NCBI GenBank assembly: GCA_903896425.1
Contig: CAITXW010000474.1
Location: forward strand, 1-34,300
Source of the DNA: an uncultured beta proteobacterium
Lineage (GTDB): Bacteria; Pseudomonadota; Gammaproteobacteria; Burkholderiales; Burkholderiaceae_C
Direction of reading: 5' to 3'
DNA length: 34,300 nucleotides
Position numbers and translations under genes: made by a program. The notes beneath the pieces are model-generated. The model searched no databases and had not been told where the DNA came from. It was given only the letters and a program-made list of their open reading frames with translations. The first letter of the stretch is position 1; the number at the start of each line of letters is the position of its first letter. Positions 1 to 20,148 of this stretch are shown piece after piece.

Positions 1-1
1 C

Positions 2-742
2 GCGCTGGCACCCGGCGATGTAGCGTGCGTGCTGGCCGAACCGGTGATGACCAATATCGGCATGGTGCTGCCCCAGAGCGGGTTTTGGGAGCAGGCGCAA
101 GCCTTGATTCGTCGCCACGGCGCCATGTTGGTGATGGACGAAACCCACACCATCAGCAGCGGCCCTGGCGGCTATTGTCAAGCCCACGGATTGCGCGCTG
201 ATGCCGTCGTGGTTGGCAAGCCACTCGGTGGTGGAATGCCTTGCGCAGCCTATGGCTTCAGCGCCGAGTTAGCCCAACGCGTGGTGGCAGCCAAACGCAA
301 TGCGCCTGCCGGACATTCGGGCATCGGCACCACCCTGACGGCAAATCTGCTGGCGATGGCTGCCATGCGCGCCACACTGACCGAACTGATGACACCGGCA
401 ACCTACGCGCCCATGCTTGCGCTGGCAACCACGCTTGCGCAGGGCTTGCGTGCGGTCATTGCACAGCACAAGCTGCCGTGGTGCGTGACACAGGTTGGCG
501 CCCGAGCCGAATTCCAGTTTTGTGCAACGCCCCCCGTCAATGGCACACAGGCGGGTCACGCCATGAATCCCGCTCTGGAACACGCCATTCACCTCTACCT
601 GCTCAATCGGGGAGTCTTGATCACGCCGTTTCACAACATGATGTTGATCTGCCCTGACACCACAGCGGACGATGTACGCCTTCTCCTGCGGGCTTTCAAT
701 GCTGCGCTGTCCGAACTTACAGGAGATTCTTTACATGGTTAA
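2..742 (+). CDS. Class III aminotransferase (GSA-aminomutase-like), 3' part
   Basis: This is the C-terminal part of a PLP-dependent class III (omega) aminotransferase of the glutamate-1-semialdehyde aminomutase/aspartate aminotransferase-like group. The frame is open from base 2, before the first possible start (GTG at 29), so the gene begins outside the window. The motif MDETHTISSGPGG carries the Asp that would pair with the PLP pyridine nitrogen, and VVVGKPLGGGMP holds the lysine expected to form the Schiff base. The end is typical of the family. Its stop codon overlaps the start of the next gene by 8 nt (ATGGTTAA), so the two are probably co-translated, and the GntR protein may regulate this gene. 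The substrate cannot be read from the sequence. The fold and PLP lysine are secure; the reaction is not. Confidence 0.88.
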   Translation, partial: ALAPGDVACVLAEPVMTNIGMVLPQSGFWEQAQALIRRHGAMLVMDETHTISSGPGGYCQAHGLRADAVVVGKPLGGGMPCAAYGFSAELAQRVVAAKRNAPAGHSGIGTTLTANLLAMAAMRATLTELMTPATYAPMLALATTLAQGLRAVIAQHKLPWCVTQVGARAEFQFCATPPVNGTQAGHAMNPALEHAIHLYLLNRGVLITPFHNMMLICPDTTADDVRLLLRAFNAALSELTGDSLHG

Positions 743-1472
743 GAGCAGCATCCGGGCGGTGCCTCCCACTTCAACTCAGCAAGACAGCACCTATGCCACG
801 CTGCGCCAGTGGATCACGGTGGGGAAATTCGTCCCCGGTGAACGGCTGAAGATCCGCAGTGTGGCGGCCAGCCTGGGTGTCGGCGAAATGCCGGTGCGTG
901 CCGCGCTGCAACGCCTCGCAGCGGAGGGCGCGCTGGTCAATGTCCCGAATGCCGGCGTCGCGGTGCCACAGCTATCCCGGCCCGAGTTCGATGACTTGCT
1001 GCAGATGCGCATGCTGCTCGAAGGCGAAGCCGCTGAACGCGGCAGTTTGCGGCTCGACGCCGCGCAAAAGCTGACGCTCAAAAAACTATGCCAGCGCATG
1101 GCCAAGGCCTTGAAATCGGGTGATGCTGATGCTTACCTGGTTGCCAATGAAGATTTTCATGTGTTGTTGTATCGCGCGGCCGGCTCCCCCACACTGTTTG
1201 CGCTGATCGACACACTGTGGCTCAAGGCCGGTCCGATTTCAAACCAGCTTTTTGACATACCCCAGGCGAGTGCCGTCCTCAACGATGCACACGGTGACGT
1301 GGTGCGTGCCCTGGCGCACAACGACAGCGCCGCTGTGCGCCGCGCCATCGAAAAGGATATCTTTGTCGCCGGGCAATTCTTGCGGCAACTCTACGACCGG
1401 TATAGAAAACAAACCTGGACGTCGGGACCGGGTCGTCAGCAGGAGCACGTGTCCTGCATAGTTCCTGTATAG
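735..1472 (+). CDS. GntR family regulator, FCD (FadR-type) domain
   Basis: This is a cytoplasmic DNA-binding repressor or activator of the GntR/FadR subfamily, about 245 aa. An N-terminal winged helix-turn-helix (about residues 18-75, with SVAASLGVGEMPVRAALQRL as recognition region) is followed by an alpha-helical FCD ligand-binding domain. The FCD metal-site region is seen at NEDFH and DAHGD; the last usual His appears to be replaced in AIEKDI. I chose ATG 735 because AGGAGA lies 9 nt upstream and because it overlaps the stop of the aminotransferase; an in-frame ATG at 672 would lie deep inside that gene with no ribosome site. FCD regulators usually sense small organic acids and control the adjacent catabolic genes, so the aminotransferase pathway is the likely target (inference). 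Confidence 0.9.
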   Translation: MVKSSIRAVPPTSTQQDSTYATLRQWITVGKFVPGERLKIRSVAASLGVGEMPVRAALQRLAAEGALVNVPNAGVAVPQLSRPEFDDLLQMRMLLEGEAAERGSLRLDAAQKLTLKKLCQRMAKALKSGDADAYLVANEDFHVLLYRAAGSPTLFALIDTLWLKAGPISNQLFDIPQASAVLNDAHGDVVRALAHNDSAAVRRAIEKDIFVAGQFLRQLYDRYRKQTWTSGPGRQQEHVSCIVPV

Positions 1473-1611
1473 TCGCGGCCAAATTAGCAAGGACTGATTG
1501 CCAAACGCTCGGTAACGACTTGCATTGGCGGGGTTGTCGAGATGCGGTCTCCGAAAGACTCCGGTCTGGTCTGCATTGCCTTTGATTGCATGGGAATGAT
1601 GAGGTGATCAG
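1473..1611 (+). other. Intergenic region before the histidine kinase
   Basis: This 139-bp gap separates the GntR gene from the kinase gene. I see no convincing sigma-70 promoter or terminator. The only clear element is a GAGG ribosome site at 1601-1604, 7 nt before ATG 1612. Confidence 0.4.
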
Positions 1612-3870
1612 ATGAATCAGAACTTGTCAATGCTGAACGGGCGACACCTTATGCGCATCCGACTGCTGGTCGTGTCGTTCTTGTGCTGCGCCTGGATCGG
1701 CATGGCGTGTGGCGAGCAGACAGCAACCCCTTTCACGACACAAACGCTTGTCTCTGCCGAGTTGACCAGCCTGACCGGGAAGCAAACCGTTGAGTTGCCC
1801 CACATCTTGCAGTCAGGCGATTTCAATCGCAGCGGCAGCACAGTTCATTACCGCTTGGTGGTCCAATTGCCCAGACAGCCCGATGCAGCGCTGGGGGTTT
1901 TCGTCTCGAAGTTAAGCCTTTCAGGCCGACTGTCCTTGAATGGGGAGGAAGTCGGCTCTTGCGCCGAGGGGCGATTGCAGGATGTACGCTGCCTGAATCA
2001 ACCGAGTCTGTTTGTCCCGCCGAAGGGCGCGTGGCGTGTCGGAGCCAACACGCTCGACTTCGAGATTTACGCCAGTAGCAGGCAGGCCAACGGGTTGACG
2101 CCAGTGCTGGTGGCCGACGCTTATGAACTCCGTCGCGGACCCTATCGAAATAGTTACTTGTTAAAGCAGGAATTAGCCGAAGGCATTACCTGGGTATCGC
2201 TGCTGCTGGGTTTGCTTTCGCTAGCGGCGGCGCTTGTGTTACGCAGTACCTCACTGTATTTCTGGTTTGGTTTAACTTGTGTCAGCAATGCCCTGGTGAA
2301 CCTCAGCTTCTTGATTATTTACCCGCCAGTCAATGGTGACTTGTTCAGCTGGTTCATTTTCGCCAGCCGTATGGCCTCAAGCTGTCTGCTGTTACTGACG
2401 CTTGTGTACCTTTTCGCCAAGGAAGAGAGCTTGCGCTGGCTGCAACGACTGCTTGTGGCTTACTCGATTTTCGGACCGACACTGATCGCCGCCACGAACA
2501 ACAATCGCATGGTGGTGGTGGCCTTGTACGCGCCGCTTGCATTGGTGGCGCTTGGACTGTTGGTTGCCATGGTTCGATGGTCCTGGCAATCACGCCGACC
2601 TTTGCACGTGATAACGACGCTCATGCTCTGCGCTCTGTTTGCCATGGCAATGCTGGACTGGGCGCGACTGGCCGGCCGGGCAGTATTTGATGGCGTGTAC
2701 CTGATTACTTACGGTTACCCAGGCGTGATGCTGATCATTGGTGGCATGCTACTGGGCCTGCTGACTTCCGCCTTGCGCACTTCGCGCGAACTCAGCGCAA
2801 CACTGGAAGAACAGGTTGTCGCCCGAACCAAGGAATTGGGGGGCGCGCTTGAACGAATCGGACAAATGGAGCAGACAACACGTTTGCTGACAGAAAACAT
2901 TCCTGTCGGAACCTACGTGATGGAAACAACGTCAGAAGGTGTGCCACGGTTTACGTTCCTGAGTGAGCGATGGTTGAAGATGCTCGATGTGCGTCGCGAA
3001 GACGTGCTGGCAGACACGAACAGTGGATTTCGCATTGTCCATCCGGATGACTACGATGCCTTCCTGGCGCTCAACATGGAGGTCTTTGCCGAAATCAAGC
3101 CCCTTCACTGGGTAGGTCGAATTGTGGTCAATGGCCAGATTCGATGGCTCAGCGTTGAGTCAGTGCCGCGGCGTTTGGTCCAGGGTGGCGCTGTATGGGA
3201 GGGGGTGATGGTTGACATCACAGCCTACAAAGAGGCGGAAGCCAGTTTGAAATTGGCGAACCAGACCATATTGGCAGCCGAAATTGAACGCTCCAAACAG
3301 GATGAGCGCGAGCGTCTGTTGCAGGACATGCACGACGGATTTGGTTCGCAACTTTCCACTGCCCGGATCATGGCCGAGGAAGGCACCATGACCCAGGCGC
3401 AACTCACGCAAGTCTTGCAGGAATGCATGTCGGACCTGTATCTGGTAGCCGACGCCTTGCGGCAGACCGATCTCACGCTGGAGGATGCCCTCGTTGATTT
3501 CCGCTTTCGCATCGAGCGCCGCTTGTTGGGAATGTCGACGCAGGTTCACTGGAATATTCAGATTGCGCAACTGCCGGAGATCGCACAGCGCATCATCCTG
3601 CAAGTTCTGCGCATCCTCCAGGAGGCACTGAACAACGCACTCAAGCATGCGCAAGCTGGCGCGATCTGGATCGAAGCGCGGTATGAGCCCGAGCACCGCG
3701 CCTTGCTGTTGAGCGTTGCCGATGACGGCGTGGGTTTGCCGACGCCCTTGGTCTATGGACGGGGCTTGCGCAATATTCAGCGCAGGGCGCGCGAAATAGG
3801 GGCGGAACTTTCAATTCCCGCGTCTGAACCAGGCACGCGGATAAGCCTGCGCTTAATCGTTCAAGACTGA
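1612..3870 (+). CDS. Membrane histidine kinase: 7TM-DISM-like, PAS, HisKA_3, HATPase
   Basis: This is a 752-aa sensor histidine kinase. An N-terminal hydrophobic signal (about 12-34) leads to a periplasmic beta-rich sensor of about 150 residues resembling the 7TMR-DISM extracellular domain, then about seven transmembrane helices (roughly 195-395), a short coiled coil, a PAS fold (about 420-540) and a NarX/DesK-type HisKA_3 dimerisation domain. The probable phosphoacceptor is His574 in DMHDGFGSQ. The ATPase domain shows the N box EALNNALKHA (Asn674/675), G1 DDGVG (704-708) and G2 GRGLRNIQ. HisKA_3 kinases pair with NarL-type regulators, and one is encoded convergently only 22 bp away, so they are probably partners. 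ATG 1612 has a GAGG site 7 nt upstream. The ligand is unknown; DISM receptors are thought to bind carbohydrates or other small molecules. Confidence 0.9.
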   Translation: MNQNLSMLNGRHLMRIRLLVVSFLCCAWIGMACGEQTATPFTTQTLVSAELTSLTGKQTVELPHILQSGDFNRSGSTVHYRLVVQLPRQPDAALGVFVSKLSLSGRLSLNGEEVGSCAEGRLQDVRCLNQPSLFVPPKGAWRVGANTLDFEIYASSRQANGLTPVLVADAYELRRGPYRNSYLLKQELAEGITWVSLLLGLLSLAAALVLRSTSLYFWFGLTCVSNALVNLSFLIIYPPVNGDLFSWFIFASRMASSCLLLLTLVYLFAKEESLRWLQRLLVAYSIFGPTLIAATNNNRMVVVALYAPLALVALGLLVAMVRWSWQSRRPLHVITTLMLCALFAMAMLDWARLAGRAVFDGVYLITYGYPGVMLIIGGMLLGLLTSALRTSRELSATLEEQVVARTKELGGALERIGQMEQTTRLLTENIPVGTYVMETTSEGVPRFTFLSERWLKMLDVRREDVLADTNSGFRIVHPDDYDAFLALNMEVFAEIKPLHWVGRIVVNGQIRWLSVESVPRRLVQGGAVWEGVMVDITAYKEAEASLKLANQTILAAEIERSKQDERERLLQDMHDGFGSQLSTARIMAEEGTMTQAQLTQVLQECMSDLYLVADALRQTDLTLEDALVDFRFRIERRLLGMSTQVHWNIQIAQLPEIAQRIILQVLRILQEALNNALKHAQAGAIWIEARYEPEHRALLLSVADDGVGLPTPLVYGRGLRNIQRRAREIGAELSIPASEPGTRISLRLIVQD

Positions 3871-3892
3871 ATTACGAATCCGGTGCATCGGA

Positions 3893-4648
3893 TCAGATCA
3901 AGCCTTGATCGCGGGCTTTCGTCACGGCCTGCATTTGCGAGTTGGCGTCGAGTTTGCGATAGAGGTTGCGAATGTTGTACTGGACCGTTGAGAGGGCAAT
4001 GCCCATGATACGGGCGACCTCTTCGTACTTGTGGCCCTTTGAGAGGTGCTGCAGGGTTTCGAGTTCACGCGGCGACAAATTGTGCTCTGCATTGGCGCTC
4101 GTTCCGAAGGCCCCGCCGGCCATCTTGAACAGGTAGCGTGCCAGGGCCGGGGTGATCGGGTAATTGCCCAGCATCAGTTCCTGAATCGCCTGTGTGATGG
4201 CGGCTTTTGAGTCGCCTTTCAGGATATAGCCCCGTGCACCCGCCCGTATGGCCGCCAGCACGCTGCGCTCGGTTGAAATGACTGAGATCACCATGATCGG
4301 CAGGCTCGGGTATCGCCGGCGCAAGCCCCGAATAACCTCAATGCCTGAAATATCCGGCAGTCCCAGATCGACCAGCGCAAGATCAAGCCCCACCTTGTTG
4401 TCCTCACACAGGCTGAGCGCCTGACTGCCGGTTTGGCAAAAATACGTCTTGCCGTCGATGCCCAGGCTCTCGATGGCCTGGCCGATCACCTGCTCGAACA
4501 GTGGGTTGTCCTCGACCACCAGAATCCGGCGCGGGAAGAAACGAGGGTTATCGGCGTGAATTGGGATTTCTTGACTCATTGCATCGCAACTGTATTTGAA
4601 AAAAACCGACTTGTACCCCCCATGAATATAGGGGCCCCGCATGTTCAT
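3893..4648 (-). CDS. NarL/LuxR-type response regulator
   Basis: This is a two-component response regulator with a receiver domain and a C-terminal LuxR-type helix-turn-helix. The receiver begins at RRILVVEDNP; the phosphorylated Asp is residue 94 in LALVDLGLPD counted from ATG 4648, and the conserved Lys is in GYILKG. The DNA-binding domain runs from NLSPRELETL through VARIMGIALSTVQYNIRNLYRKL. The start is uncertain. ATG 4648 has a good AAAGGA site with a 5-nt spacer but adds a 23-residue leader not typical of the family. ATG 4579 (MSQEIPIH) begins where the family usually begins but has a poor ribosome site. GTG 4666 is also open. Convergent with the HisKA_3 kinase, its likely partner, and divergent from the receptor/HD-GYP pair, which is a plausible target (inference). 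Confidence 0.88.
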   Translation of the reverse strand: MNMRGPYIHGGYKSVFFKYSCDAMSQEIPIHADNPRFFPRRILVVEDNPLFEQVIGQAIESLGIDGKTYFCQTGSQALSLCEDNKVGLDLALVDLGLPDISGIEVIRGLRRRYPSLPIMVISVISTERSVLAAIRAGARGYILKGDSKAAITQAIQELMLGNYPITPALARYLFKMAGGAFGTSANAEHNLSPRELETLQHLSKGHKYEEVARIMGIALSTVQYNIRNLYRKLDANSQMQAVTKARDQGLI

Positions 4649-4773
4649 GCGGTTCCTTTCGATCACAAATTCTAGACAATTCAGAGCGCCTCAAAAAGAC
4701 AATTGCTGCGAAGCTGCTTAGTTTTGAATACCTCCGCCAGAAATACCAGCTGTTCCAACCGAACGGCATCACT
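4649..4773. promoter_or_regulatory. Divergent control region, regulator versus receptor/HD-GYP pair
   Basis: This 125-bp AT-richer gap must hold the promoters of both the response regulator (minus) and the receptor/HD-GYP pair (plus). The regulator has an AAAGGA ribosome site at its 5' end. No pair of consensus -35/-10 hexamers with proper spacing stands out on either strand, which would fit activator-dependent promoters. Confidence 0.35.
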
Positions 4774-5823
4774 GTGAAAAGACTATTACTCCTGTTGGGA
4801 CTTGTTGTCGCATTCGGCCTCGCCTGGAATTGGCTTGACGTAATCGACCTCAAGGTAGTCGGTCAACCGTCCATGACGGGTCCCATTCAAAGCGAATTGG
4901 AAAAACCGTTTTTTGAATCGCTTCGGGAAAAAACCGGCATTCCATTCAAGGTTGAGTACCGCACCATTGACGCTATTGGCTTCAAGGACAACCGGCAGTT
5001 GGCCTTGATGAAAGACGGCGTGTTTGACATGGTTTCCCTCCGGTTCCTGCAAAACAGCGAGGAAGAGCCCAGTATCCTGGGGGTTGATCCGCCAGGTTTG
5101 AATGCCAATTACCAAACAGCCCGCAAGATTTCAGCTGCCTATGCACCTGTACTGGACGAGAATTTGCAGCGCCGGTTTGGCGTGAAATTGCTGGGTATCT
5201 GGCCTTTTGGACCCCAGGTGCTTTTTTGCAACCAAGCCATCAATCACCTCGCCGACTTGAAGGGCCACAAGGTTCGGATCGGAAGTACGATTTTGGCACC
5301 CCTGATTGAATCCATAGGGGCTATCCCGGTTGTTATTCCATTCGATGAGGTTGCCAATGCGCTGGCCCTGAAGATTACAGACTGCGCAATCACAAGTCGC
5401 ATATCCGGCTACTCGGCAAAGTGGCCGGCCCATACGACGCATGTATACCCCATCGCCACGCAGATGGGTCTCAACGGTATCGCCATCCGGCTTGGAATTT
5501 GGAACAACCTGGGCGCGACTCAACAGCAGCGTCTGTCGGACGCTGTCAATACCTACATTGCAAACGTATGGTCCTACTCCGAGCAACTTGACGCTCAAGC
5601 ATCGGACTGCATCCAGGGCAAAGACAGCTGTGCACTGGGTGTGAAGTACAAACTGGTTTCTTCGCCTGTTGCAAATGACGACATCCACTTCATGCGCGAC
5701 TTTGCTTTGACCAAGTCATTGCCGACATGGGCAGAACGCTGTAACCAGCTGTCACCTGATTGCTCGACCCAATGGGAAAAAATCGTTGAGCCGATTCTTG
5801 CGCAGGCCAAACAGCCGTTATGA
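4774..5823 (+). CDS. Orphan TRAP (DctP-like) periplasmic solute receptor
   Basis: This 349-aa protein resembles the DctP family of extracytoplasmic solute receptors of TRAP transporters. It has an N-terminal signal or anchor (KRLLLLLGLVVAFGLAW), then a two-lobed binding-protein fold. The family core is recognisable at LADLKGHKVRIGS, whose Arg matches the carboxylate-binding arginine region of DctP proteins, followed by IPVVIPFDEVANAL. Two Cys pairs near the C terminus (DCIQGKDSC and RCNQLSPDC) could form disulphides. The start is GTG 4774 with only a weak ribosome site. No DctQ or DctM membrane genes are present. Instead the stop overlaps the start of an HD-GYP gene (ATGA), so the receptor probably serves as a sensor and not as an importer part (inference). 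The ligand may be an organic acid. Confidence 0.78.
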   Translation: MKRLLLLLGLVVAFGLAWNWLDVIDLKVVGQPSMTGPIQSELEKPFFESLREKTGIPFKVEYRTIDAIGFKDNRQLALMKDGVFDMVSLRFLQNSEEEPSILGVDPPGLNANYQTARKISAAYAPVLDENLQRRFGVKLLGIWPFGPQVLFCNQAINHLADLKGHKVRIGSTILAPLIESIGAIPVVIPFDEVANALALKITDCAITSRISGYSAKWPAHTTHVYPIATQMGLNGIAIRLGIWNNLGATQQQRLSDAVNTYIANVWSYSEQLDAQASDCIQGKDSCALGVKYKLVSSPVANDDIHFMRDFALTKSLPTWAERCNQLSPDCSTQWEKIVEPILAQAKQPL

Positions 5824-6977
5824 AGTACAGGCACACAAGCGCACATCAGTCGGTCGGATTTGACCTGAATATCGCTACACGCTCGCTTGATATTGTTGTC
5901 GCACTGTCCGCAGTGATCTTTGTACTCAACTTCGCGTTCGAAGTTCTGCAATCCTATGGAGCGTCATTCAGTCACCGGGCCCTGATGCTTGGTTTCATCG
6001 CAACCCTGGGGCTCTGGGCTTTTATTGAGTGTTTGTTGCTGATGAAAGGTCAAGCAAAACAGGTTTTCAAAATACTTCTGGCGCTGCTGGCGATACAAGT
6101 CGTATTGTCGATGACAAGGGCGGGTTGGTTGTACGTGGACTTGCATGCGCCGTCGTCATCCCAACTGCTGCTGGGAATTCCGCATAACAAGTGGCACCTC
6201 CTGTTCCTGATTCCATATATCTTCGTATTCCTTGGAATCCACAAAACGGTTGTAGGTCTGTTTTCCCTGAACGAACGCATCTTTGCGGCCAACAAGGAAA
6301 AGCAGATGCTGATTGCGCTCAATGCGATGGCCATGGCGCGTGACAACGAGACCGGCAATCACATTCTGAGAACTCAAATATATGCGCGAATGCTGGCCCA
6401 GCGTTTGCGGGAAATGGGCTACCACTCGGATGTACTGACCGATGATTTTATTGACCTGATGGTGAAGGCCGCCCCCTTGCACGACATCGGCAAGGTCGGC
6501 GTCCCTGATGCCATCCTGCACAAGAAAGGTGCCCTCACCCCCGACGAGTGGGTGATCATGAAGACACACACCACCATCGGCGAATCCATTCTCACAGCAG
6601 CCGTTAACAAGATGGGAAGGTCTGATGATGTACTCGACAAAGCCATCATGATTGCGGGTGGTCATCATGAGAGATGGGATGGCTCCGGATATCCACGGGG
6701 CCTCAAAGAAGAAGCCATTCCACTGGCTGCGCGCATCATGACTGTTGCCGACATCTATGACGCATTGGTGAGTCGACGTGTTTACAAAGCGAGTTGGACA
6801 CACGAGGAAGCGGTCGCCGAGATAGGGAAAATCAGCGGGGCACAACTCGACCCCCATGTGGCGATGGCCTTTGAACGCGAGGCTGCGCAATTCCGGCGGA
6901 TCGCAATGGAACTGGCTGATGATGGATCGGTGCGCCCTCTATCCGCCGCAATAGTCGTTGAATCGAGCCTGACATGA
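5820..6977 (+). CDS. Membrane HD-GYP phosphodiesterase (c-di-GMP)
   Basis: This 385-aa protein has about four transmembrane helices (roughly 24-44, 54-75, 82-100 and 125-145) and a cytoplasmic HD-GYP domain. The catalytic signatures are intact: LHDIGKVGVPDAIL with His221-Asp222, and HHERWDGSGYP with the GYP triad at 290-292, followed by AARIMTVADIYDAL and SRRVYK. Such domains hydrolyse cyclic-di-GMP at a di- or tri-metal centre. The short loops between the helices leave no large periplasmic sensor, so input may come from the receptor whose gene overlaps this one by 4 nt. A 10-bp stem hairpin lies 14 nt after the stop. The enzyme class is well supported; the link to the receptor is inferred. 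Confidence 0.92.
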   Translation: MKYRHTSAHQSVGFDLNIATRSLDIVVALSAVIFVLNFAFEVLQSYGASFSHRALMLGFIATLGLWAFIECLLLMKGQAKQVFKILLALLAIQVVLSMTRAGWLYVDLHAPSSSQLLLGIPHNKWHLLFLIPYIFVFLGIHKTVVGLFSLNERIFAANKEKQMLIALNAMAMARDNETGNHILRTQIYARMLAQRLREMGYHSDVLTDDFIDLMVKAAPLHDIGKVGVPDAILHKKGALTPDEWVIMKTHTTIGESILTAAVNKMGRSDDVLDKAIMIAGGHHERWDGSGYPRGLKEEAIPLAARIMTVADIYDALVSRRVYKASWTHEEAVAEIGKISGAQLDPHVAMAFEREAAQFRRIAMELADDGSVRPLSAAIVVESSLT

Positions 6978-6990
6978 GTTGTCTGACCTT

Positions 6991-7020
6991 TTGCTGATGC
7001 CTTTAGAACAGCGTCAGCAA
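6991..7020 (+). terminator. Hairpin after the HD-GYP gene
   Basis: TTGCTGATGC at 6991-7000 pairs with GCGTCAGCAA at 7011-7020 (ten pairs, one G-U), around a 10-nt loop. It begins 14 nt after the HD-GYP stop, as a transcript-end hairpin would, but no run of T follows. It may instead be a 3'-end stabiliser or a remnant of the decayed insertion next to it. Confidence 0.45.
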
Positions 7021-7036
7021 TGCGGATTGGATGCCG

Positions 7037-7222
7037 TCAAGTGACCGTCGGCAATGTGGAACCCGGACAACAGATTTCCCCGATTTCAGCATCGTCCATC
7101 AAGCCACTGAGCTTGGGGAACTTGGCACGAAGCTGATCAGCAACCGACCTCCATTGGGTTTTGGCGGCCTCTGCTGTGTCCTGCACAAACACGGCTGGCT
7201 GTATCGAAGCGCGGTTCGCCAC
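7037..7222 (-). pseudogene. Remnant of an IS256-family transposase
   Basis: On the minus strand a 61-codon open stretch contains FVQDTAEAAKTQWRSVADQL and then KFPKLSGLMDDAE. This matches, from memory, the conserved C-terminal part of IS256-family (mutator) transposases, which typically read like WR.VADQLR.K.PKL..LMDEAE before a DVLAYM motif. The similarity stops right after DDAE and the frame then ends. About 45 residues of a protein of about 400 remain, with no DDE catalytic residues, so this is a dead fragment. No terminal inverted repeats were found. An overlapping plus-strand open frame (7031-7282) is its shadow. Confidence 0.6.
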
Positions 7223-7265
7223 CTAAAACGGATGCTGCCGCTCAATTGGCAAAATGTAATCCAAC

Positions 7266-7661
7266 TTAGCCCAGATACTTGACGGCCAGTACCGGACAGG
7301 AGACCGATAGAAGGAGCTCCTGGGCGACGCTGCCCAAGAGGAGTTTGCCGACTGGCGAACGTTTTCTCAGCCCAATGACGAGTACCGATACCTGCAAGGA
7401 CTCTACCAATCCTTCAATCTCTTCGACGGCATTGTGGCCGCGAACGAATTGTTTTACTTCCGCATCGAGACCGCTGTCTGCCAACATTTTTTGCACACGC
7501 TCAAAGTCATGCGCATCAGCAAACGAGGGGTCGCTTTTCATCCCACCCGGGCTGGCGTTGACAACCACCAGGCGCTCGTTGCGACGTTTCGCCATTTCGA
7601 TGCCCTTGTCCAAAGCGGTCTGACCCTCGGGGCGAGGCACATAAGCAACCAGTATCGTCAT
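7266..7661 (-). CDS. Universal stress protein (UspA family)
   Basis: This 131-aa single-domain Usp protein starts with the usual first strand MTILVAYVP and ends with the ATP-binding loop GLRKRSPVGKLLLGSVAQEL followed by CPVLAVK. The Gly/Ser pattern of that loop agrees with the ATP-binding Usp type. It lies 58 bp after livF on the same strand, so it may be the last gene of the liv/CoA operon or have its own promoter in the AT-rich gap; its ribosome site is weak. Usp proteins are cytoplasmic and linked to stress survival. Its role beside a transporter is unknown. Confidence 0.9.
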   Translation of the reverse strand: MTILVAYVPRPEGQTALDKGIEMAKRRNERLVVVNASPGGMKSDPSFADAHDFERVQKMLADSGLDAEVKQFVRGHNAVEEIEGLVESLQVSVLVIGLRKRSPVGKLLLGSVAQELLLSVSCPVLAVKYLG

Positions 7662-7719
7662 GATATTTTTACTTTTCCAAAAAAATTATGGTCGACAAAA
7701 CGAACCGCGCAATGCCGGC

Positions 7720-8421
7720 TCACCGGGCAAAATACAGGTCGTGCAAGTGATCAAGGCTGACTTCTGAAGCGGGCTGGGACAAAATGACCTTGCCGCTTTG
7801 CATCAGGTAAACGTGATCGGCCACGCTGACCGCCTTATGGGTGTTTTGCTCCACCAGAATGATGGTTCGACCACCCTCCTTGAGCCGCCCAAGAATCTCA
7901 AACAGTTCGTTCACCAGGACCGGTGCCAAGCCCAGTGAGGGCTCATCAATGATCAACAACTTCGGATCCGCCATGAGGCCGCGCGCCATCGCCAGCATTT
8001 GCGCCTCACCACCCGAGAGTGACCCGGCCAACTGCTTGCGTCGCTCATTGAGTCGGGGAAACATCTGATAGGACTTGTCGAGATTCTCTCTGACGAGTGC
8101 CCGGTGCTGCTTCGGAAACGCGCCCATGATCAGGTTTTCCTCGACACTCATGTCACGGAACGTCATCCGGCCTTCTGGAATCATGGCCATTGAGACATCG
8201 GCCATCTTCCAAGTTGGCACGTCATTCAAGGATTTGCCATTGAGCTTGACCTCACCTTGCGACACCGGAATAAGGCCCATGATCGCCCGCAACAAGGTCG
8301 TCTTTCCTGCGCCGTTGGGCCCGATGATCGTGGTTAATTGCCCGCTGGCAGCCGTCAGCGACACATCCCACAGGACATTGATGGCGCCGTAACCGGCGCG
8401 GACATTGCAGATCTCAAGCAT
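7720..8421 (-). CDS. livF: Branched-chain amino acid-type ABC transporter ATPase LivF
   Basis: This 233-aa protein is the second cytoplasmic ATPase of a LivHMGF-type importer. Walker A is GPNGAGKTT, the signature is LSGGEAQM, Walker B is LLIIDEPS, and the LivF-typical IPEGRMTFRDMSVEENL is present. I chose ATG 8421, which has an AGGAGG ribosome site with a 5-nt spacer; the GTG two codons earlier overlaps that ribosome site. The start lies inside the end of livG (8-nt overlap), showing translational coupling. With LivG it would power import of whatever the upstream periplasmic receptor binds. LivHMGF relatives also import aromatic acids, dicarboxylates and amides, so the name does not fix the substrate. 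Confidence 0.95.
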   Translation of the reverse strand: MLEICNVRAGYGAINVLWDVSLTAASGQLTTIIGPNGAGKTTLLRAIMGLIPVSQGEVKLNGKSLNDVPTWKMADVSMAMIPEGRMTFRDMSVEENLIMGAFPKQHRALVRENLDKSYQMFPRLNERRKQLAGSLSGGEAQMLAMARGLMADPKLLIIDEPSLGLAPVLVNELFEILGRLKEGGRTIILVEQNTHKAVSVADHVYLMQSGKVILSQPASEVSLDHLHDLYFAR

Positions 8422-9127
8422 GGGCACCTCCTGTGTAGCTCTTGATGACGGCCGGATTGCTGAAGACTTCGTCCGGTGTTCCCTCGGCGATCAACTCACC
8501 AAAGTTAAGTACCGCCACGCGTTGGCACAAATTGCTGATGGTTTCAATATCGTGCTCGATGATGACGATGCCAACCGAAAATTTCCGGTGCAAGTCCTTG
8601 AGCATGGTCATGAAGTGGCGCTTGCCGGTTGTCTCGAGACCGGCAAACACTTCGTCAAGCAATAGCAATTTCGGATTGGTCGCCAATGCCTTGGCCACTT
8701 CGAGTGCCTTGAGTTCCGTCAGCGCCAGTTCGGTAGCGGCATTGCGTTCGCTCTTTGCGGTGAGGCTGGTGAATTCAAGAATTTCGTCAATCTTGTTCTG
8801 ATCGACTTTTCCGGTTCCGAAGCGCTGCGCAACGATCAGGTTTTGCATCACGCTGAGTTCATGCATGGGTTGCGGCACCTGGAACGTGCGACCGATTCCC
8901 ATCCGTGCGCGCTGGTAAAGCGGCGAGCGAATGACGTCGACGCCGTCAAATGTGATCTCGCCGCTGCTCGGGCTCACCAAGCCCGAGATAGCATTGAACA
9001 GCGTGGTTTTCCCCGCGCCATTCGGACCGACGAGGCCAACCACATCGTGCGTTCCAACCGCGAATGTCACATTGTCCAGCGCGGTAAGCCCACCGAACCG
9101 TACCGATATATTCTTAAGCTGTAGCAT
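8414..9127 (-). CDS. livG: Branched-chain amino acid-type ABC transporter ATPase LivG
   Basis: This 237-aa protein is the LivG-type ATPase. It shows Walker A GPNGAGKTTLFNAI, the LivG-specific region GIGRTFQVPQPMHELSV, and Walker B KLLLLDEVFAGL. The signature position reads ALTELKALEVAKAL: the usual LSxGQ is replaced by TELKALE, as often seen in LivG-like ATPases of carboxylate importers. The C-terminal NFGELIAEGTPDEVFSNPAVIKSYTG is typical of LivG. ATG 9127 has GGAGA 4 nt upstream and overlaps the end of livM by 14 nt. It forms the ATPase pair with LivF on the inner face of the membrane. Confidence 0.95.
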   Translation of the reverse strand: MLQLKNISVRFGGLTALDNVTFAVGTHDVVGLVGPNGAGKTTLFNAISGLVSPSSGEITFDGVDVIRSPLYQRARMGIGRTFQVPQPMHELSVMQNLIVAQRFGTGKVDQNKIDEILEFTSLTAKSERNAATELALTELKALEVAKALATNPKLLLLDEVFAGLETTGKRHFMTMLKDLHRKFSVGIVIIEHDIETISNLCQRVAVLNFGELIAEGTPDEVFSNPAVIKSYTGGAHA

Positions 9128-10067
9128 GGGATCTCCTTGTCAACTTGCGCAACAGCGACAGCAAGCCGTCCGGGCTGAATACAATCATCGCAACCAGCAG
9201 TACACCGAGCACCAATTGGTGCCCCGATGGAATGATGTTCTTGAAGATCAACTGGTCGATCAAATACACGACCACCGCACCAACGATTGGGCCGGTAATG
9301 GTGCGATAGCCACCGAATATGGCCGCCACAATGGGCAGGGTCACCCAAATGCCGCTGAAGGCATAGTCGGGCTCAAGAAAATTGATGTAGTGCGCGTTGA
9401 AGGCACCCACCACGCCGCACATGAAGGCCGAGACCAGCAACATCAGGCCCTTGAGCAGCGTGCTGTTGACACCGACGACGCGGGTTGCATCTTCGCTTTC
9501 GTGCATCGCCCGCAATGCCAGCCCGTAATGGCTGCGACGGATGTATTGATAGATCGCGGCAAACGCCAGAACAATGGTTAGGATGACCAGGTAGCCGCCG
9601 GTCTTGCTGCTCAGGTCATAGCCGAATATTTCAGGCAAACGCGGAATGTTTGACAAGCCGCCAGCGCCGCCGGTCACCGCAGTCCACTGGGTCGCAAGAA
9701 TCCGGAAGATATGCGCGTAGGCCAGAATGGCCAGCGCGAAATAGGGGCCCCGCAAGCGCAACACCGGCATCATGGCCAGCGACGCGACAACGGCGCCGAC
9801 GCCACCGAGCAGTATCGACAGCAGCACCGGCACACCGAGTTTCAAACTCAGGATCGATGAGACATAAGCACCAACGCCGAAAAATGCGGCGTGTCCAAAG
9901 CTGACCATGCCACCCAGGTTGCCGAGCAAAGCCCATGACAGCGCAACGCCGCCAATGACCATCGCAGCGACGACCAGGCTCATCACATAGTTGTCGCTAC
10001 CGAATACCAGCGGCACGGCGACATAGACCGTCAACAGCATGACGGCAATCGTCTTGTTGAATTTCAT
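9114..10067 (-). CDS. livM: Branched-chain amino acid-type ABC permease LivM
   Basis: This 317-aa integral membrane protein has about nine hydrophobic helices. The LivM family signature GMVSFGHAAFFGVGAY is near residue 52, and the permease loop around LALRAMHESEDATRVVGVN is the region expected to touch the ATPases. The end matches the usual GPIVGAVVVYLIDQL and LVLGVLLVAMIVFSPDGLL. The start ATG overlaps the stop of livH by 4 nt (ATGA) and has GGGAG 6 nt upstream. With LivH it forms the inner-membrane channel. Confidence 0.95.
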   Translation of the reverse strand: MKFNKTIAVMLLTVYVAVPLVFGSDNYVMSLVVAAMVIGGVALSWALLGNLGGMVSFGHAAFFGVGAYVSSILSLKLGVPVLLSILLGGVGAVVASLAMMPVLRLRGPYFALAILAYAHIFRILATQWTAVTGGAGGLSNIPRLPEIFGYDLSSKTGGYLVILTIVLAFAAIYQYIRRSHYGLALRAMHESEDATRVVGVNSTLLKGLMLLVSAFMCGVVGAFNAHYINFLEPDYAFSGIWVTLPIVAAIFGGYRTITGPIVGAVVVYLIDQLIFKNIIPSGHQLVLGVLLVAMIVFSPDGLLSLLRKLTRRSHATA

Positions 10068-10936
10068 CCTCGTCTCCCTTTTGCGCCAAACAGGCCGTTC
10101 GGCATGACGAACAGCACCAGAAGAAACAGACCCATGCCAACGAGTTCCTGCAAGGCCGAACTGGCCAGCGTGACGGTGAGTGCTTCGGCAACGCCGAGCA
10201 ACAAGGCGCCGATCAGCACACCGGGGATCGAGCCGATGCCGGCGAGCACCGTGATGATGAAGGCCTTGACCGTCAGCACACTGCCATAGGCTGGACTGAC
10301 AACGCCATAACTGTAGAGCGCCACACCGGCAACGGCGGCCAGAATACCGGCGACGATGAACGACACCAGTTCGGTGTAGCCGGGATCGATTCCCATCAGT
10401 TTGGCGGCATCACGGTTGCTCGACACGGCGCGCACGGCGCGGCCATACCAGCTGCGGGACAGCCACCACCAGAGGCCGACCATCATGACCAGACTGACAA
10501 TAAAGAACAGCACCTCGCTTCGCATGCTGTAGAAGGGGCCAACGACGATGGCCTCCTGCATCCAGTTGGAACCGGTTGAGCGCACATCGGCCTTCCATAT
10601 CAAAAGGATGAGGTTGGTCAGGATCACGCCAATGCCGTAAGTCAGGATCAGCGAATTGATCTCGCGATCCTTCTTGATGCGACCGACCACGAAATAAACC
10701 GAGACCGATGTGACGCACACCACGACCAGCGCAATGGGTATTGCGAAAATCGGATTCCAGCCCAGGCCCGACTCCACCGAGTAGGCGACGTAGGCTGACA
10801 ACAGCACGAGTTCGCCATGTGCCAGGTTGATCACTTTCATCGCGCCAAAAACCAGCGCCAGGCCGAGCGCGATCAAAGCATACGAGCCACCCTGTAACAC
10901 CCCTGAGTAGAGCGATTGCAGTATCAATTCCGTCAT
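10064..10936 (-). CDS. livH: Branched-chain amino acid-type ABC permease LivH
   Basis: This 290-aa membrane protein begins with LQSLYSGVLQGGSYALIALGL and then has VFGAMKVINLAHGEL, the classic LivH start. The EAA-like loop is RAVRAVSSNRDAAKLMGID, and the end LVLFVMPNGLFGAKGRRG is typical. It is the first transporter gene after the receptor gene, from which it is separated by a stem-loop (10964-11003). The ribosome site is a GGGG stretch upstream of ATG 10936. It pairs with LivM. Confidence 0.95.
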   Translation of the reverse strand: MTELILQSLYSGVLQGGSYALIALGLALVFGAMKVINLAHGELVLLSAYVAYSVESGLGWNPIFAIPIALVVVCVTSVSVYFVVGRIKKDREINSLILTYGIGVILTNLILLIWKADVRSTGSNWMQEAIVVGPFYSMRSEVLFFIVSLVMMVGLWWWLSRSWYGRAVRAVSSNRDAAKLMGIDPGYTELVSFIVAGILAAVAGVALYSYGVVSPAYGSVLTVKAFIITVLAGIGSIPGVLIGALLLGVAEALTVTLASSALQELVGMGLFLLVLFVMPNGLFGAKGRRG

Positions 10937-10963
10937 ATCATCATCCCCTTGATTGGTTGCAGC

Positions 10964-11003
10964 GTGGAAGCTTTGACGCCATGACTGGCGCTACCGCTTC
11001 CAC
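10964..11003 (-). promoter_or_regulatory. Intercistronic stem-loop between receptor gene and livH
   Basis: GTGGAAGC (10964-10971) pairs with GCTTCCAC (10996-11003), and inside it CGCCA (10977-10981) pairs with TGGCG (10986-10990) around TGAC. The two stems are separated by 5-nt internal loops. It lies 15 nt downstream of the receptor stop in the direction of transcription and has no T tract. In other ABC operons such hairpins protect the 3' end of the receptor message so that more receptor than permease is made; that role here is inferred. Confidence 0.6.
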
Positions 11004-11018
11004 TCCCTGGACCGCTGT

Positions 11019-12188
11019 CTACCAGGGTACGCCTGGGAAGTTCGCCTTGCCCGTTGCGTCTGACTGCGGCCAGACGATGACGATGTTATTGCCCTGGTGC
11101 TGGCCCATGCGATGGCTGAAATTCAGGTTGTCGCCATTGGCGCCGAACTGGACGCGGCCAATCAGGGTTTCCGCATCGGTCTTTCGCATCTCTTCGGCGA
11201 CACCGTCTTTTTTCAGTGTGCCCTTGTCAGCGGCGCGCGCCATGGCATTGAACAACAGCATCGACTGAACATAGCCAAACTGACCCAGATAGTCCGGTTC
11301 TTTCTTGTACAGTCGCTGATAAGCCTCATTGAAGGACTTGCCTTCAGCCGTCTTGAACTGCGCCGGGAACGACAACACAGCTGTGCCGTAGACATTGGGC
11401 ATCAGGTCCGGAAAGTCGGCCGCCATTTTCGGAGTGGCCAACGACCAGACACCGACCATCGCTTTGACACTGGGTTTGAGAACCCGCGCCGCACGCAGAA
11501 TGCCGACGTAGTCATTTTCATAACCCACCATCGCGATGACTTCCGATTTGTCCTGCAATTTGATCTTGTTGATGATCGGTTTGAAATCGGTCATAGCGGG
11601 ATCGAAGGCGTGCGTTACCACGGTCACGCCTTTGGGTACCAAAGTCTTTTCAAGATCTCGGGCCAGACCCGATGTTGCTTCCTTGGTTGAATACACAATC
11701 GACACCGACTTGACTTTCAAGTCGCTCAGCAGCCCGACCATGGCTTTCTGATAACCAGCGGAGTTATTGATCCGGAAAAAGTTCTTCCGGCCACTGTTGA
11801 CAAGACTGTCATCAACACCACCGGATGTGACATAGACCAGGCCGAGTTTGTTGGCCGCGTCCGACGCGGGCGCGATATTGTTGGAGCCGTAGCCACCATC
11901 AATCGCCAGCACACCCTGGCTCGCCAGTTTTTCAACGGCGGCAATGGCCTTGGCGGGTGCCGACTCGTTATCGACGGTAATGGCCTTGATCTTGTGCTTG
12001 CTGTTCATCTTGTTGAAGACGTCTACCGCAACCATGATGCCTTCTTGCATCCCGGCGCCGACGCGGGCCAGGGTGCCCGTCATGGGTAGCTCCACGCCAA
12101 CCAGTAATTCCTCTGCCTGGGCAGTGGACAGCCCGAGTCCACAGACCACGAATGCTGCCAGTCCAATGCGTTTAAAAGAGTATTTCAT
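11019..12188 (-). CDS. Periplasmic receptor of the liv-type ABC transporter (LivK/peripla_BP_6)
   Basis: This 389-aa secreted binding protein of the type I fold (Peripla_BP_6) captures the substrate for LivHMGF. ATG 12188 was chosen because it opens a clean signal peptide, MKYSFKRIGLAAF to a cleavage after STAQA, whereas the open frame extends 48 codons further upstream without a signal. The mature part starts EELLVGVELPMTG and contains the family features GGYGSNNIAPASDAANK and YVTSGGVDDSLV (binding cleft), then NNSAGYQKAM. It is separated from the CoA-transferase gene by 159 bp, possibly with its own promoter, and is followed by a stem-loop before livH. Members near CoA-transferase genes often bind aromatic or dicarboxylic acids; the ligand here is not readable. 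Confidence 0.92.
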   Translation of the reverse strand: MKYSFKRIGLAAFVVCGLGLSTAQAEELLVGVELPMTGTLARVGAGMQEGIMVAVDVFNKMNSKHKIKAITVDNESAPAKAIAAVEKLASQGVLAIDGGYGSNNIAPASDAANKLGLVYVTSGGVDDSLVNSGRKNFFRINNSAGYQKAMVGLLSDLKVKSVSIVYSTKEATSGLARDLEKTLVPKGVTVVTHAFDPAMTDFKPIINKIKLQDKSEVIAMVGYENDYVGILRAARVLKPSVKAMVGVWSLATPKMAADFPDLMPNVYGTAVLSFPAQFKTAEGKSFNEAYQRLYKKEPDYLGQFGYVQSMLLFNAMARAADKGTLKKDGVAEEMRKTDAETLIGRVQFGANGDNLNFSHRMGQHQGNNIVIVWPQSDATGKANFPGVPW

Positions 12189-12347
12189 TTTTTCCGTCTC
12201 GCTAGTTATTTCGACCAAGCCCTCTGAGGGATCGATTTGGAACATACAGCGCGCGCTACCACCGTTGTGCAGCACTCGCGCTTGCCTATCTGTGATGTGT
12301 CTATGGGTGTGGGTATCTCGCACTCCTTTCAATGCAGTCGCATGACA
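12189..12347 (-). other. Leader between CoA-transferase and receptor genes
   Basis: This 159-bp minus-strand leader could hold a secondary promoter for the transporter genes. A small hairpin around CCCTCAGAGGG lies near 12220-12232. No well-spaced -35/-10 pair was found. Confidence 0.3.
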
Positions 12348-13556
12348 TCAAACGATGCCTTTCGCCACCAACTCGGCTACTTTCTCGTCGGACATCGATA
12401 GCAGCGACTGCAGAACCTGCTTCGTATCCTCGCCCAAGCGCGGCGGTGCGCTGCGTATCGGCAAGCGCACACCGTCAAAGCGGTAAGGCGGGGCCAATAC
12501 GTGCACACTGCCAGCCTCTGGGTGCGGCATCGTCGTAACCAGCCCGGCATCGACCGCCCGTTTGGAGGTGAGTGCCTCATGCAAACCGGCGACCTCGCCA
12601 CAGGGAATTCCGGCCTGCGTCAGTCGCGCCAGCAAGTCCTTGCGCTTGCGACCCAGGATCTCGCGCTTGATCTCGGGCACCAGCAGTTCCCGGTTGGTCG
12701 TGCGGTTCAAGTTGGACTTGAAGCGCTCATCGGCTGCCAGATCGGGGCGTTCAATTACATCGGTGCAAAAACGCGCGAACTGGGCGTTGTTGCCGCATGC
12801 AATCACCACCGGCCCGTCTTGCGCCTCATAGACGCCGTAGGGCGTGATGGACGGATGCGAATTTCCATACCGGGGCGGATCTTCGCCCTGAAGCAGCGCT
12901 TCGAGTCCGTAGTAAGCGGTGATCATCAGGCCGCAATCGAAAAGCGCCATCCCGATGTGGCGCCCCTTGCCGGTCTTTTCCCGCTCATACAGCGCCGCCA
13001 GAACCGCTTGCGCTGCATACATGCCGGTAACCATGTCGACCACCGCCACGCCGAACTTCAAGGGCGGCTGAGTGGCCTCGCCATTGAGCGCCATCAGACC
13101 GGCTTCGCCCTGGATCACGAGGTCATAGCCGGGGCGCGCCGCTTCTGGTCCGGTGCGGTCGTAGCCGGTGATGGAACAGTAGATCAACTCCGGATGCTGC
13201 GCACTCAATTGCTCGTAACCGAGGCCCATTTTTTCGATGCCGCCGAACTTGAAGTTCTGGATGATGACGTCGCTTTTGCCCGCCAGTTCGCGCACGATCT
13301 CCTGCGCCTCTGGTGTCTGCAGGTCGAGCGTGATCGAACTTTTGTTTCGGTTGACGCTGTTGAAATATGCGGTCTCGGTCAAACCAATGCGCAAGCCCCA
13401 GTCGCGCGTATCGTCACCACGCTGCGGGTGTTCAACCTTGATAACTTCAGCACCGAGGTCGGCCAGCACCATGGCGCACCAGGGTCCGGCCAGGATGCGG
13501 GAGAGGTCAAGAACGCGCACACCTGCGAGCGGCAATGATGATTTTGTGTCTGCCAT
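12348..13556 (-). CDS. CaiB/BaiF family (class III) CoA-transferase
   Basis: This 402-aa class III CoA-transferase moves CoA from a donor acyl-CoA to a free carboxylic acid. The N-terminal PLAGVRVLDLSRILAGPWC and DLGAEVIKVEHP are classic for the family. The expected catalytic Asp is residue 174 in AVVDMVTGMY. The length is normal for the family. ATG 13556 was chosen; the codon before it is a TTG and no strong ribosome site is seen. It is transcribed after the crotonase-fold gene with a 60-bp gap and before the periplasmic receptor. It probably activates the imported acid, taking the place of the acyl-CoA ligase found in pim operons (inference). Donor and acceptor are unknown; succinyl-CoA is a common donor in this family. 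Confidence 0.93.
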   Translation of the reverse strand: MADTKSSLPLAGVRVLDLSRILAGPWCAMVLADLGAEVIKVEHPQRGDDTRDWGLRIGLTETAYFNSVNRNKSSITLDLQTPEAQEIVRELAGKSDVIIQNFKFGGIEKMGLGYEQLSAQHPELIYCSITGYDRTGPEAARPGYDLVIQGEAGLMALNGEATQPPLKFGVAVVDMVTGMYAAQAVLAALYEREKTGKGRHIGMALFDCGLMITAYYGLEALLQGEDPPRYGNSHPSITPYGVYEAQDGPVVIACGNNAQFARFCTDVIERPDLAADERFKSNLNRTTNRELLVPEIKREILGRKRKDLLARLTQAGIPCGEVAGLHEALTSKRAVDAGLVTTMPHPEAGSVHVLAPPYRFDGVRLPIRSAPPRLGEDTKQVLQSLLSMSDEKVAELVAKGIV

Positions 13557-13616
13557 CAATAGTCCAATGATTCAAGTGTTCGCTGTGCGCCAGCGCCAGG
13601 ACAGGCGAGCGTCGCT

Positions 13617-14423
13617 TTAGTTTGCATGAGGCTTACCCCGCAGCGCGACAAAATCCGCCGGTCGCTTGGCAAGAAAAGCGCCAATGCCTTCGGCCGCTTC
13701 GTCATCGCCTTGCGACTCCACCATGTACTGCGCTTCCAACTCCATTTGTGCAGCAGCGTCGGTGCCAAAGGCGTTCCAGCACAAGGCCTTGATGCGTGCA
13801 TTGGCGCGCGTCGGCCCGGCAGCAATGCGCGCCGCCAGGACCACAGCCGCCTCCAGGGCTGCGCCCTTTTCAACCAGCCGGTTCACCGCCCCCAGCGCGT
13901 GCAAACGCTCGCTGCTGATGCGCTCGCCAGTCAGGCACAGCTCACTCAGCACCTGGCGCGAGACGAACTCCGCCAGGAAAGCGGTGGCGCCACCATCAGG
14001 CGTCAGGCCGACCTTGGCATAGGCTACGCAAAAGTAGGCATCGCGGGCGACGACCAGCATGTCGCAGGCCAGCACGATCGACATCCCGGCACCGACCGCA
14101 CCGCCTTCGACGGCGGCGATCACTGGCTTGCCGCAATGGCGGATGGAACGAATCAAATCATGCAATCCGTTCAAGCGCTCGCGCCGCTGTGCCGGTGCCA
14201 TGGCGCGGCGCAGGGCTAACTGGCCGAGGTCACCGCCCGAGCAAAAGAAATCACCTGCACCGGTCAAAACAATCGCGCCCACTGCAGTATCGCTTTGCGC
14301 ATCGACCAGCGCCGCCGACAGCTCTGAATACAGCTGCATTGACAGCGCATTGCGCTTGGCCGGGTTGTTGAGGCTCAGGATGCGCACCGCGCCTTCCTGC
14401 CGGATCAATACAGCGGTATTCAT
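13617..14423 (-). CDS. Enoyl-CoA hydratase/isomerase family protein
   Basis: This 268-aa crotonase-fold protein carries the CoA-binding and oxyanion region DFFCSGGDL (about 58-65) and GGAVGAGMSIVLACD (about 107-121). The two catalytic glutamates of classic crotonases are not present: the first site reads GAGMS (Ser115) and the second site reads AYAKVG. Instead VGLTPDGG holds an Asp at 143, as in PaaG-type isomerases and some dienoyl-CoA isomerases. Isomerase activity, such as moving a double bond, is therefore more likely than simple hydration, since the fused protein upstream can hydrate. Its start overlaps the small acyl-CoA dehydrogenase stop by 4 nt (ATGA). Fold certain; reaction uncertain. 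Confidence 0.88.
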   Translation of the reverse strand: MNTAVLIRQEGAVRILSLNNPAKRNALSMQLYSELSAALVDAQSDTAVGAIVLTGAGDFFCSGGDLGQLALRRAMAPAQRRERLNGLHDLIRSIRHCGKPVIAAVEGGAVGAGMSIVLACDMLVVARDAYFCVAYAKVGLTPDGGATAFLAEFVSRQVLSELCLTGERISSERLHALGAVNRLVEKGAALEAAVVLAARIAAGPTRANARIKALCWNAFGTDAAAQMELEAQYMVESQGDDEAAEGIGAFLAKRPADFVALRGKPHAN

Positions 14424-15562: not shown

Positions 15563-15572
15563 GTTGCTGCCC

Positions 15573-16781: not shown

Positions 16782-16792
16782 GCCAACGCTCC

Positions 16793-17974: not shown

Positions 17975-18004
17975 GTTGTTTTCCTGATGGATGGGTTGAA
18001 CGGC

Positions 18005-20125: not shown

Positions 20126-20148
20126 ATCGGCTATTTCAAAATCAAAAA

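Follow-up and report, generated by a model that had tools for sequence, protein, structure and literature searches.

Organization of the DctP and HD-GYP gene pair

We analyzed two overlapping genes in a 34,300-nucleotide stretch of DNA from an uncultured beta proteobacterium (GenBank assembly GCA_903896425.1, contig CAITXW010000474.1, positions 1 to 34,300 of the forward strand). This whole stretch is hereafter called the window. The contig is part of a draft genome of 3.5 Mb in 525 contigs that is 85% complete. The first gene encodes a solute receptor of the DctP family, as found in tripartite ATP-independent periplasmic (TRAP) transporters, and the second encodes a membrane protein with an HD-GYP domain. 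The features of the pair are as follows.

4774..5823, + strand: DctP-family (TRAP-type) solute receptor; GTG start, 349 amino acids, hydrophobic N-terminus, R168 retained
5820-6977, + strand: HD-GYP membrane protein gene; ATG start, 385 amino acids
5820..5823, + strand: ATGA overlap of the receptor stop and HD-GYP start codons, read from both coding sequences
5820..6263, + strand: four-helix membrane domain, residues 1-148 of the HD-GYP protein, from hydropathy; no Pfam family
6303..6974, + strand: HD-GYP domain, from about residue 162, placed by the HD_5 match, structure alignments and motif positions

An earlier note, made from the sequence letters, had described this ATGA overlap and an HD-GYP protein with intact catalytic residues and no large periplasmic domain, and had seen neither DctQ nor DctM genes nearby. 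The two coding sequences, the family matches, the hydropathy profile and the transporter searches given below bear out each of these descriptions.

The receptor scored 58.6 bits against the Pfam family DctP (PF03480; cut-off 23.4) and 79.6 bits against NCBIfam TRAP_S1 (cut-off 50), but 45.5 against TIGR00787 dctP, under the cut-off of 175. Because the first two cut-offs were passed and the third was missed, the receptor is, by these profiles, a genuine though distant DctP member. It has 24 relatives of solved structure, at expectation values (E) from 1e-12 to 7e-6.

The HD-GYP protein matched HD_5 with 108.4 bits, and its residues 162-368 aligned with the solved HD-GYP proteins 4r8z and 4mcw. 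The top structural match was 4r8z, a c-di-GMP (cyclic di-GMP) phosphodiesterase, with E 3.9e-43; a third solved relative, 5z7c, is named a 3'3'-cGAMP (cyclic GMP-AMP)-specific phosphodiesterase. Five motifs of the domain were found, ETGNH (177), HDIGK (221), THTTIGE (249), HHERWDGSGYP (282) and VADIYD (309), which include the metal-binding residues of the family. Judged from these matches, the protein probably breaks down c-di-GMP.

Hydropathy showed four helices in the N-terminal part, starting near residues 25, 55, 81 and 127, with short loops between them and thus no large periplasmic domain. The distribution of charges would place both the N-terminus and the loop joining helices 2 and 3 on the inside; therefore, two short loops would face outward. 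A Pfam scan of the four-helix domain matched no family, DctQ included. AlphaFold2 models built from two-row alignments reached a mean predicted local distance difference test score of 54 for the membrane domain, again with four helices, and of 32 for the receptor; these were too poor and were not used.

The domain was also considered as a remnant of DctQ, which likewise has four helices, and this was rejected as a homology: hhalign comparisons with 23 DctQ proteins, using two and five rows, gave probabilities of 0.1-0.5% (E 0.13-0.32). The versions of the domain attached to kinases and to a GGDEF-EAL protein, described below, lack a P-x-x-x-W stretch that precedes helix 4 both here and in DctQ. 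The two may nevertheless share a fold.

The four-helix domain follows DctP genes under four kinds of output

The receptor was searched against 89 genomes of the genus, giving 29 matches besides the window, 20 of which were fetched with their surroundings. The E values of the nine unfetched matches ranged from 1.2e-33 to 8.2e-31; the match in G602, one of these nine, is represented by locus L215. In two genomes (G863 and G867), a receptor 42-43% identical to that of the window is followed after about 50 bases by a PAS-HisKA-HATPase kinase, and in a third (G848), a receptor cut by the contig end is followed by a PAS-PAS-GGDEF-EAL protein. In these kinase and GGDEF-EAL partners, the first 160 residues form the four-helix domain that is also seen in the window. 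A profile built from the kinase and GGDEF-EAL versions only found the window copy at E 2e-11 and the copy of a sister genome, G851, at E 4e-7 among 8972 sequences; when whole frames were searched, the values were 9e-11 and 9e-6, and the next best match had 0.8. The kinase and GGDEF-EAL versions have the gap of about 50 bases after the receptor instead of an overlap, which the sister locus also has.

A five-row domain profile identified six genes in the 89 genomes: those of the window, G851 (locus L009), G863, G867, G848 and G868. Their outputs are HD-GYP, PAS-HD-GYP, a PAS-kinase in three cases and PAS-PAS-GGDEF-EAL. All six copies stand directly after a DctP gene; four of these receptor genes are complete, a contig end truncates another, and the sixth has an internal deletion. 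Conversely, the four-helix domain comes next in 5/5 of the fetched DctP genes of the receptor clade defined below, and DctQM genes come next in the seven other strong genus matches that were fetched (L257, L260, L262-L266). The internally deleted case is G868, where a short frame (L282 4633-5004, reverse-strand count) just before a PAS-HisKA-HATPase kinase contains both ends of a receptor but lacks its central part. This gap may be a real deletion or an assembly fault.

The earlier note had made its interpretation depend on conservation of the pair in relatives. The exact combination of DctP and HD-GYP is known only from the window and L009, but the wider pairing of this DctP clade with the four-helix domain recurs, with other outputs, at 6/6 loci that have the domain, and the interpretation was not refuted on this point. 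Such a wider pairing with varied outputs is stronger evidence for a coupling of receptor and membrane domain than one pair repeated.

When the domain sequence alone was searched against 399 order genomes, ten weak matches other than the window itself were obtained (E 0.0017 to 0.034); a search of plasmids gave no match, and the domain profile found no copy besides that of the window in 222 family genomes.

As an observation apart, the four-helix kinase gene of G868 is followed by two genes (L282 1160-3773, - strand) whose products match PF00221 (aromatic amino acid lyase) and PF02423 (ornithine cyclodeaminase family). Similar translations, which were not profile-scanned, occur in L259. These downstream genes are possible targets of the system or possible clues to the ligand.

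Five of the six receptors form a distinct clade

In a tree with 24 transport receptors, the five signalling receptors (those preceding the four-helix domain; the G868 receptor was in no tree) formed one clade with support of 100/99. The clade was kept in three rebuilt trees, which omitted the window pair, the truncated receptor of G848 or four long rows (100/100, 100/99 and 100/99, respectively), and these three rebuilds make long-branch attraction a less likely cause of the grouping.

R168 and six cysteines (152, 204, 279, 286, 323 and 330) lie in columns common to 15 transport relatives and the signalling clade; R168 is the DctP family arginine, which we take to bind the carboxylate of the ligand. 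The signalling receptors keep 64/147 of the columns that are common to at least 14 of the 15 transport relatives, and nine positions are fixed in 5/5 signalling receptors and found in at most one of the 15 transport relatives; two of them, 170 and 208, lie beside conserved motifs. These changed positions suggest a different ligand.

The N-termini of the signalling receptors have KR or QR followed by 15-17 mostly hydrophobic residues, and most transport receptors end this region in A-x-A. The receptor may have lost its signal peptide, in which case its N-terminal helix would stay uncleaved and could hold it in the membrane. A simple signal-peptide rule applied to four signalling and 59 transport receptors did not separate the groups: a loose cleavage site was present in 4/4 and 58/59, and the strict A-x-A in 2/4 and 50/59.

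The receptor is shared with a sister locus and the enzyme differs

The closest relative of the locus, L009 in G851, has the same receptor (95% protein identity), and its HD-GYP protein is 52% identical in both halves and contains an additional PAS domain. The following feature marks the change between the two genes.

5791..5850, no strand: similarity break point against the sister genome (L009 9018-9077), about 95% DNA identity before and about 50-75% after

Between position ~2250 and the receptor stop codon, the DNA of the two loci is about 95% identical; in 1650-2250, the identity is 69-90%. Counted in bins of 30 bases, mismatches rose from 1 through 2 and 3 to 6 just before 5821 and reached 15 in the bin that follows. 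Similarly, the synonymous divergence (dS) was 0.10 in the receptor versus 0.93 in the membrane domain. The break thus falls at the junction of the receptor and enzyme genes, and recombination there, by which either the enzyme was replaced or the upstream part was imported, would be the likeliest explanation.

The ratio of nonsynonymous to synonymous divergence in the receptor was 0.22 between the two genomes, indicating that by this measure the receptor is under purifying selection. Its last 78 codons contained 11 amino-acid changes versus 5 silent ones, compared with 6 versus 17 over the preceding 270 codons (Fisher p 0.011), where the 78/270 split was picked after the data had been seen and the last stretch borders the break point. 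The excess of amino-acid changes at the receptor end could reflect co-adaptation with the swapped enzyme.

In the membrane domain, the parts best kept between the window and the sister were helix 1 (16/21 identical), outer loop 1 (9/12) and helix 4 (15/22). Less was kept in helix 3 (11/19), and least in helix 2 (7/20) and loop 3 (6/23). Retention of helix 1, loop 1 and helix 4 would fit a docking surface located in loop 1.

Transporter genes for the receptor

Our own DctQ and DctM profiles found no match in positions 1-14000 of the window, so the receptor is not encoded here with DctQ and DctM, as it would be in a TRAP transporter. Genome-wide, they gave 13 matches for DctM and 9 for DctQ; none lies on this contig, and some are located at contig ends. 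The closest transport relatives of the receptor provided four DctM proteins, to which the DctM found in the source genome showed at most 44% identity; when these four were compared with four further DctM of the same kind, the identity was 57-83%. The earlier note had counted a DctQM pair elsewhere that uses this receptor as an objection: no fitting pair was found, a result judged in a draft that is 85% complete and split into 525 contigs.

The source genome contains two more DctP genes (G000:C24:9195-10049 and G000:C53:27363-28205), with no DctQM, GGDEF, EAL, HD-GYP or kinase match within 1.5 kb on each side of either.

Orphan DctP receptors in the order and the family

The receptor was further searched in two sets of 399 genomes, one from the order and one from the family, and the surroundings of 33 and 100 places, respectively, were fetched. 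Besides weaker DctP hits, the search gave a subfamily of stronger matches. The gene after each receptor was classed by profiles built in this analysis. Among 135 loci, including the window and the sister locus, DctQM came after the receptor in 56 (a label that takes in DctQ-only loci), and DctQ or DctM only before it in four. A GGDEF-EAL gene came next in 43, a histidine kinase gene in 23, an HD-GYP gene in two (the window and L009) and none of these in seven, this last class taking in loci cut by contig ends. Orphan DctP receptors are therefore not rare in this bacterial family.

A quick tree placed 68 orphan receptors in a single clade, comprising 43 GGDEF-EAL, 22 kinase and three other loci. 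The window and L009 receptors grouped within the DctQM receptors (98-100 support), apart from this clade, on a long branch of the kind that the tree program flags. On this tree, DctP receptors would have become coupled to signalling genes at least two times, the case of the window being the rarer one.

Members of the large clade include L069, L070, many of L148-L223, and L267-L275; nine further GGDEF-EAL orphan-DctP loci occur in the genus. Most partners in the clade have two helices about 270 residues apart, that is, an outer domain, and a Pfam scan of the outer stretch of two of them (L069 and L268) found no domain. A possible start codon exactly at -4 was present in 30/43 GGDEF-EAL, 8/23 kinase and 12/55 transport loci (for DctQ; one additional transport locus without a usable DctQ lies outside the 55). 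However, 39/43 of the GGDEF-EAL loci have a TGA stop, and TGA stops by themselves favour such overlaps. Thus, the excess of -4 starts in the GGDEF-EAL loci is suggestive only; the kinases show little of it.

Surroundings of the gene pair

Two further signalling genes adjoin the pair.

1612..3870, + strand: sensor kinase neighbour with PAS, weak HisKA_3 and HATPase matches; the L009 protein is 90% identical
3893..4666, - strand: LuxR/NarL-type response regulator neighbour, oriented divergently to the receptor gene; the L009 counterpart is 95% identical

This kinase and regulator (1612-4666) share the history of the pair with the sister genome, and they may be members of the receptor and HD-GYP system; neither was seen in the sequence fetched on the sides of the other domain copies. 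Beyond the HD-GYP gene, the opposite strand encodes a universal-stress protein and a branched-chain-type ATP-binding cassette transporter. Farther on, at 12348-20245, genes for a coenzyme A (CoA)-transferase, an enoyl-CoA hydratase, an acyl-CoA dehydrogenase and a thiolase lie in a run (translations read, not profile-scanned), which is probably a catabolic cluster for an organic acid.

The G+C content was 0.53-0.58 over 1001-12000 and 0.59-0.67 elsewhere in the window, except at 20-21 kb (0.54). A foreign origin of the locus by composition was considered and rejected; the low-G+C stretch also spans ordinary transporter genes, and nothing in it is specific to the pair. A transfer RNA scan of the window found none. 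A pattern scan of 4600-7300 gave zero promoter-like sites (1.9 expected by chance) and nine terminator-like sites against 2.9 expected; neither result was used.

Proposed mechanism and alternatives

We propose that the two proteins form a dedicated transmembrane sensor, in which the receptor acts via the four-helix domain on a c-di-GMP enzyme, and we put the probability of this reading at about 0.6. The receptor, which appears to originate among the transport receptors, would bind a small ligand outside the cytoplasmic membrane, probably an organic acid. It would then dock on the four-helix domain by way of the two short outer loops, in a manner resembling the docking of TRAP receptors on their membrane subunits. 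Docking, or the closing of the receptor on its ligand, would shift the helices, above all helix 4, after which the output domain begins, and this movement would change c-di-GMP hydrolysis in one direction or the other. In related species, the same kind of receptor and domain would act on another output, namely PAS-HD-GYP, a histidine kinase or GGDEF-EAL. The docking, the class of ligand, the enzyme activity and the direction of the effect are inferred.

This sensor is favoured because its sensing parts stay constant while the output changes, because the receptors form a distinct clade and because the draft contains no fitting transporter. A receptor and membrane domain that remain constant while the enzyme varies are what a ligand sensor would predict. 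The interpretation of the earlier note, that the receptor senses through the HD-GYP protein, is therefore partly supported, and this support is genomic rather than mechanistic.

Several points weigh against the proposed sensor. One of the six receptors in the wider pairing is internally deleted, and it belongs to G868, the sole genome of the six with a completeness of 90% or more and a contamination of 5% or less. The kinase of G868 looks intact and may do without a receptor, or the assembly may be wrong there. This slightly lowers our confidence in the sensor and in the modular reading below. The signalling receptors lie on long branches, for which the tree program warns that joins may be false. 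The six loci come from one genus, with five species besides that of the window, all in multi-contig drafts, and two of them (the window and the sister) are close kin. Moreover, adjacency of the receptor and domain genes is not contact, the outer loops have only about 12 and 23 residues, and the docking analogy between the domain and DctQ is a functional one, as the comparisons above showed no homology.

The alternative that survives best, which we consider unlikely, is that the two genes are co-transcribed for one response, for example to the same carboxylate, and that their products make no contact, with the domain sensing the membrane state or a membrane-soluble compound. The shortness of the outer loops would suit this explanation, as would the G868 kinase, which bears the domain beside a deleted receptor, and an HD-GYP protein could be regulated alone. 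However, loose co-regulation is not expected to keep just the receptor and the domain, and the pairing of a single clade of five DctP receptors with this domain survives the change of output.

Far less probable is a receptor that still serves a TRAP transporter encoded elsewhere and stands before the HD-GYP gene incidentally. Its descent from transport receptors, the incompleteness of the draft and the DctM and DctQ matches, some of them at contig ends, speak for such a transporter. In contrast, no DctM found in the draft resembles those of the transport relatives as closely as these resemble their own kind, and the receptors stand on a long branch, have changed conserved positions and adjoin the same membrane domain each time. 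The least probable alternative accepts the system and assigns the HD-GYP protein to another cyclic dinucleotide or to a binding or scaffold role, as the cGAMP-specific relative 5z7c and an activity unreadable from sequence would allow, but its best match, 4r8z, is a c-di-GMP phosphodiesterase and the motifs are present.

Beyond the sensor itself, we tentatively suggest, as somewhat doubtful, that the six loci represent a modular receptor class. The TRAP-type receptor, released from its role in transport and perhaps helix-anchored, would be a detachable outer half, and the four-helix domain, apparently not described before and lacking an outer domain, would be the inner half. The outputs (c-di-GMP hydrolases, GGDEF-EAL enzymes or histidine kinases) would be exchangeable and the gene junction would be a possible swap point.

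Comparison with known systems

Many c-di-GMP enzymes have no known signal. If the proposed contact is true, a TRAP-type receptor would signal by way of transmembrane helices, with no need for a receptor domain in the periplasm, and the locus would offer a tractable route to the ligands of c-di-GMP networks. The same receptor and domain under a changing output would be a natural experiment, with one sensor and several outputs. The larger orphan-DctP clade beside GGDEF-EAL genes suggests that DctP sensing is common in this bacterial family.

A literature search of titles and abstract beginnings found no paper describing a DctP-driven c-di-GMP enzyme, nor any on orphan DctP loci with GGDEF-EAL or histidine kinase genes. 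Two binding-protein systems invite comparison: MbaA is a GGDEF-EAL protein with a periplasmic part, and STM1987 makes c-di-GMP. NspS-MbaA of Vibrio cholerae, with homologues in Sinorhizobium meliloti, is a polyamine sensor that combines a binding protein in the periplasm with a c-di-GMP enzyme in the membrane (PMC9602780). It is the closest precedent, and as in the window, a binding-protein gene lies next to the gene for a membrane c-di-GMP enzyme. However, NspS binds polyamines and is not of the DctP family, whereas the partner in the window is an HD-GYP protein without a periplasmic ligand-binding domain for a loaded receptor. In Salmonella, the binding protein ArtI is required for the arginine response of STM1987, which needs its periplasmic dCACHE domain; ArtI belongs to another receptor family than the DctP protein of the window. 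Domains of the binding-protein clan are also prevalent as parts of GGDEF, EAL and HD-GYP proteins (for these Salmonella and clan statements, PMC8846402).

The DctP-DctQ-DctM transporters share the receptor family with the window, and the closest transport relatives of its receptor precede DctQM genes. They differ in that the window locus has neither DctQ nor DctM, and that the four-helix domain is not significantly similar to DctQ. The orphan DctP loci with GGDEF-EAL or kinase genes in the family resemble the window in having a DctP gene without adjoining transporter genes, often with a -4 start, but their receptors form a separate clade and their partners are mostly two-helix proteins with a stretch of about 270 residues. 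Thus, c-di-GMP enzymes driven by binding proteins are known, and what appears new here is the combination of a DctP receptor with a membrane domain absent from Pfam.

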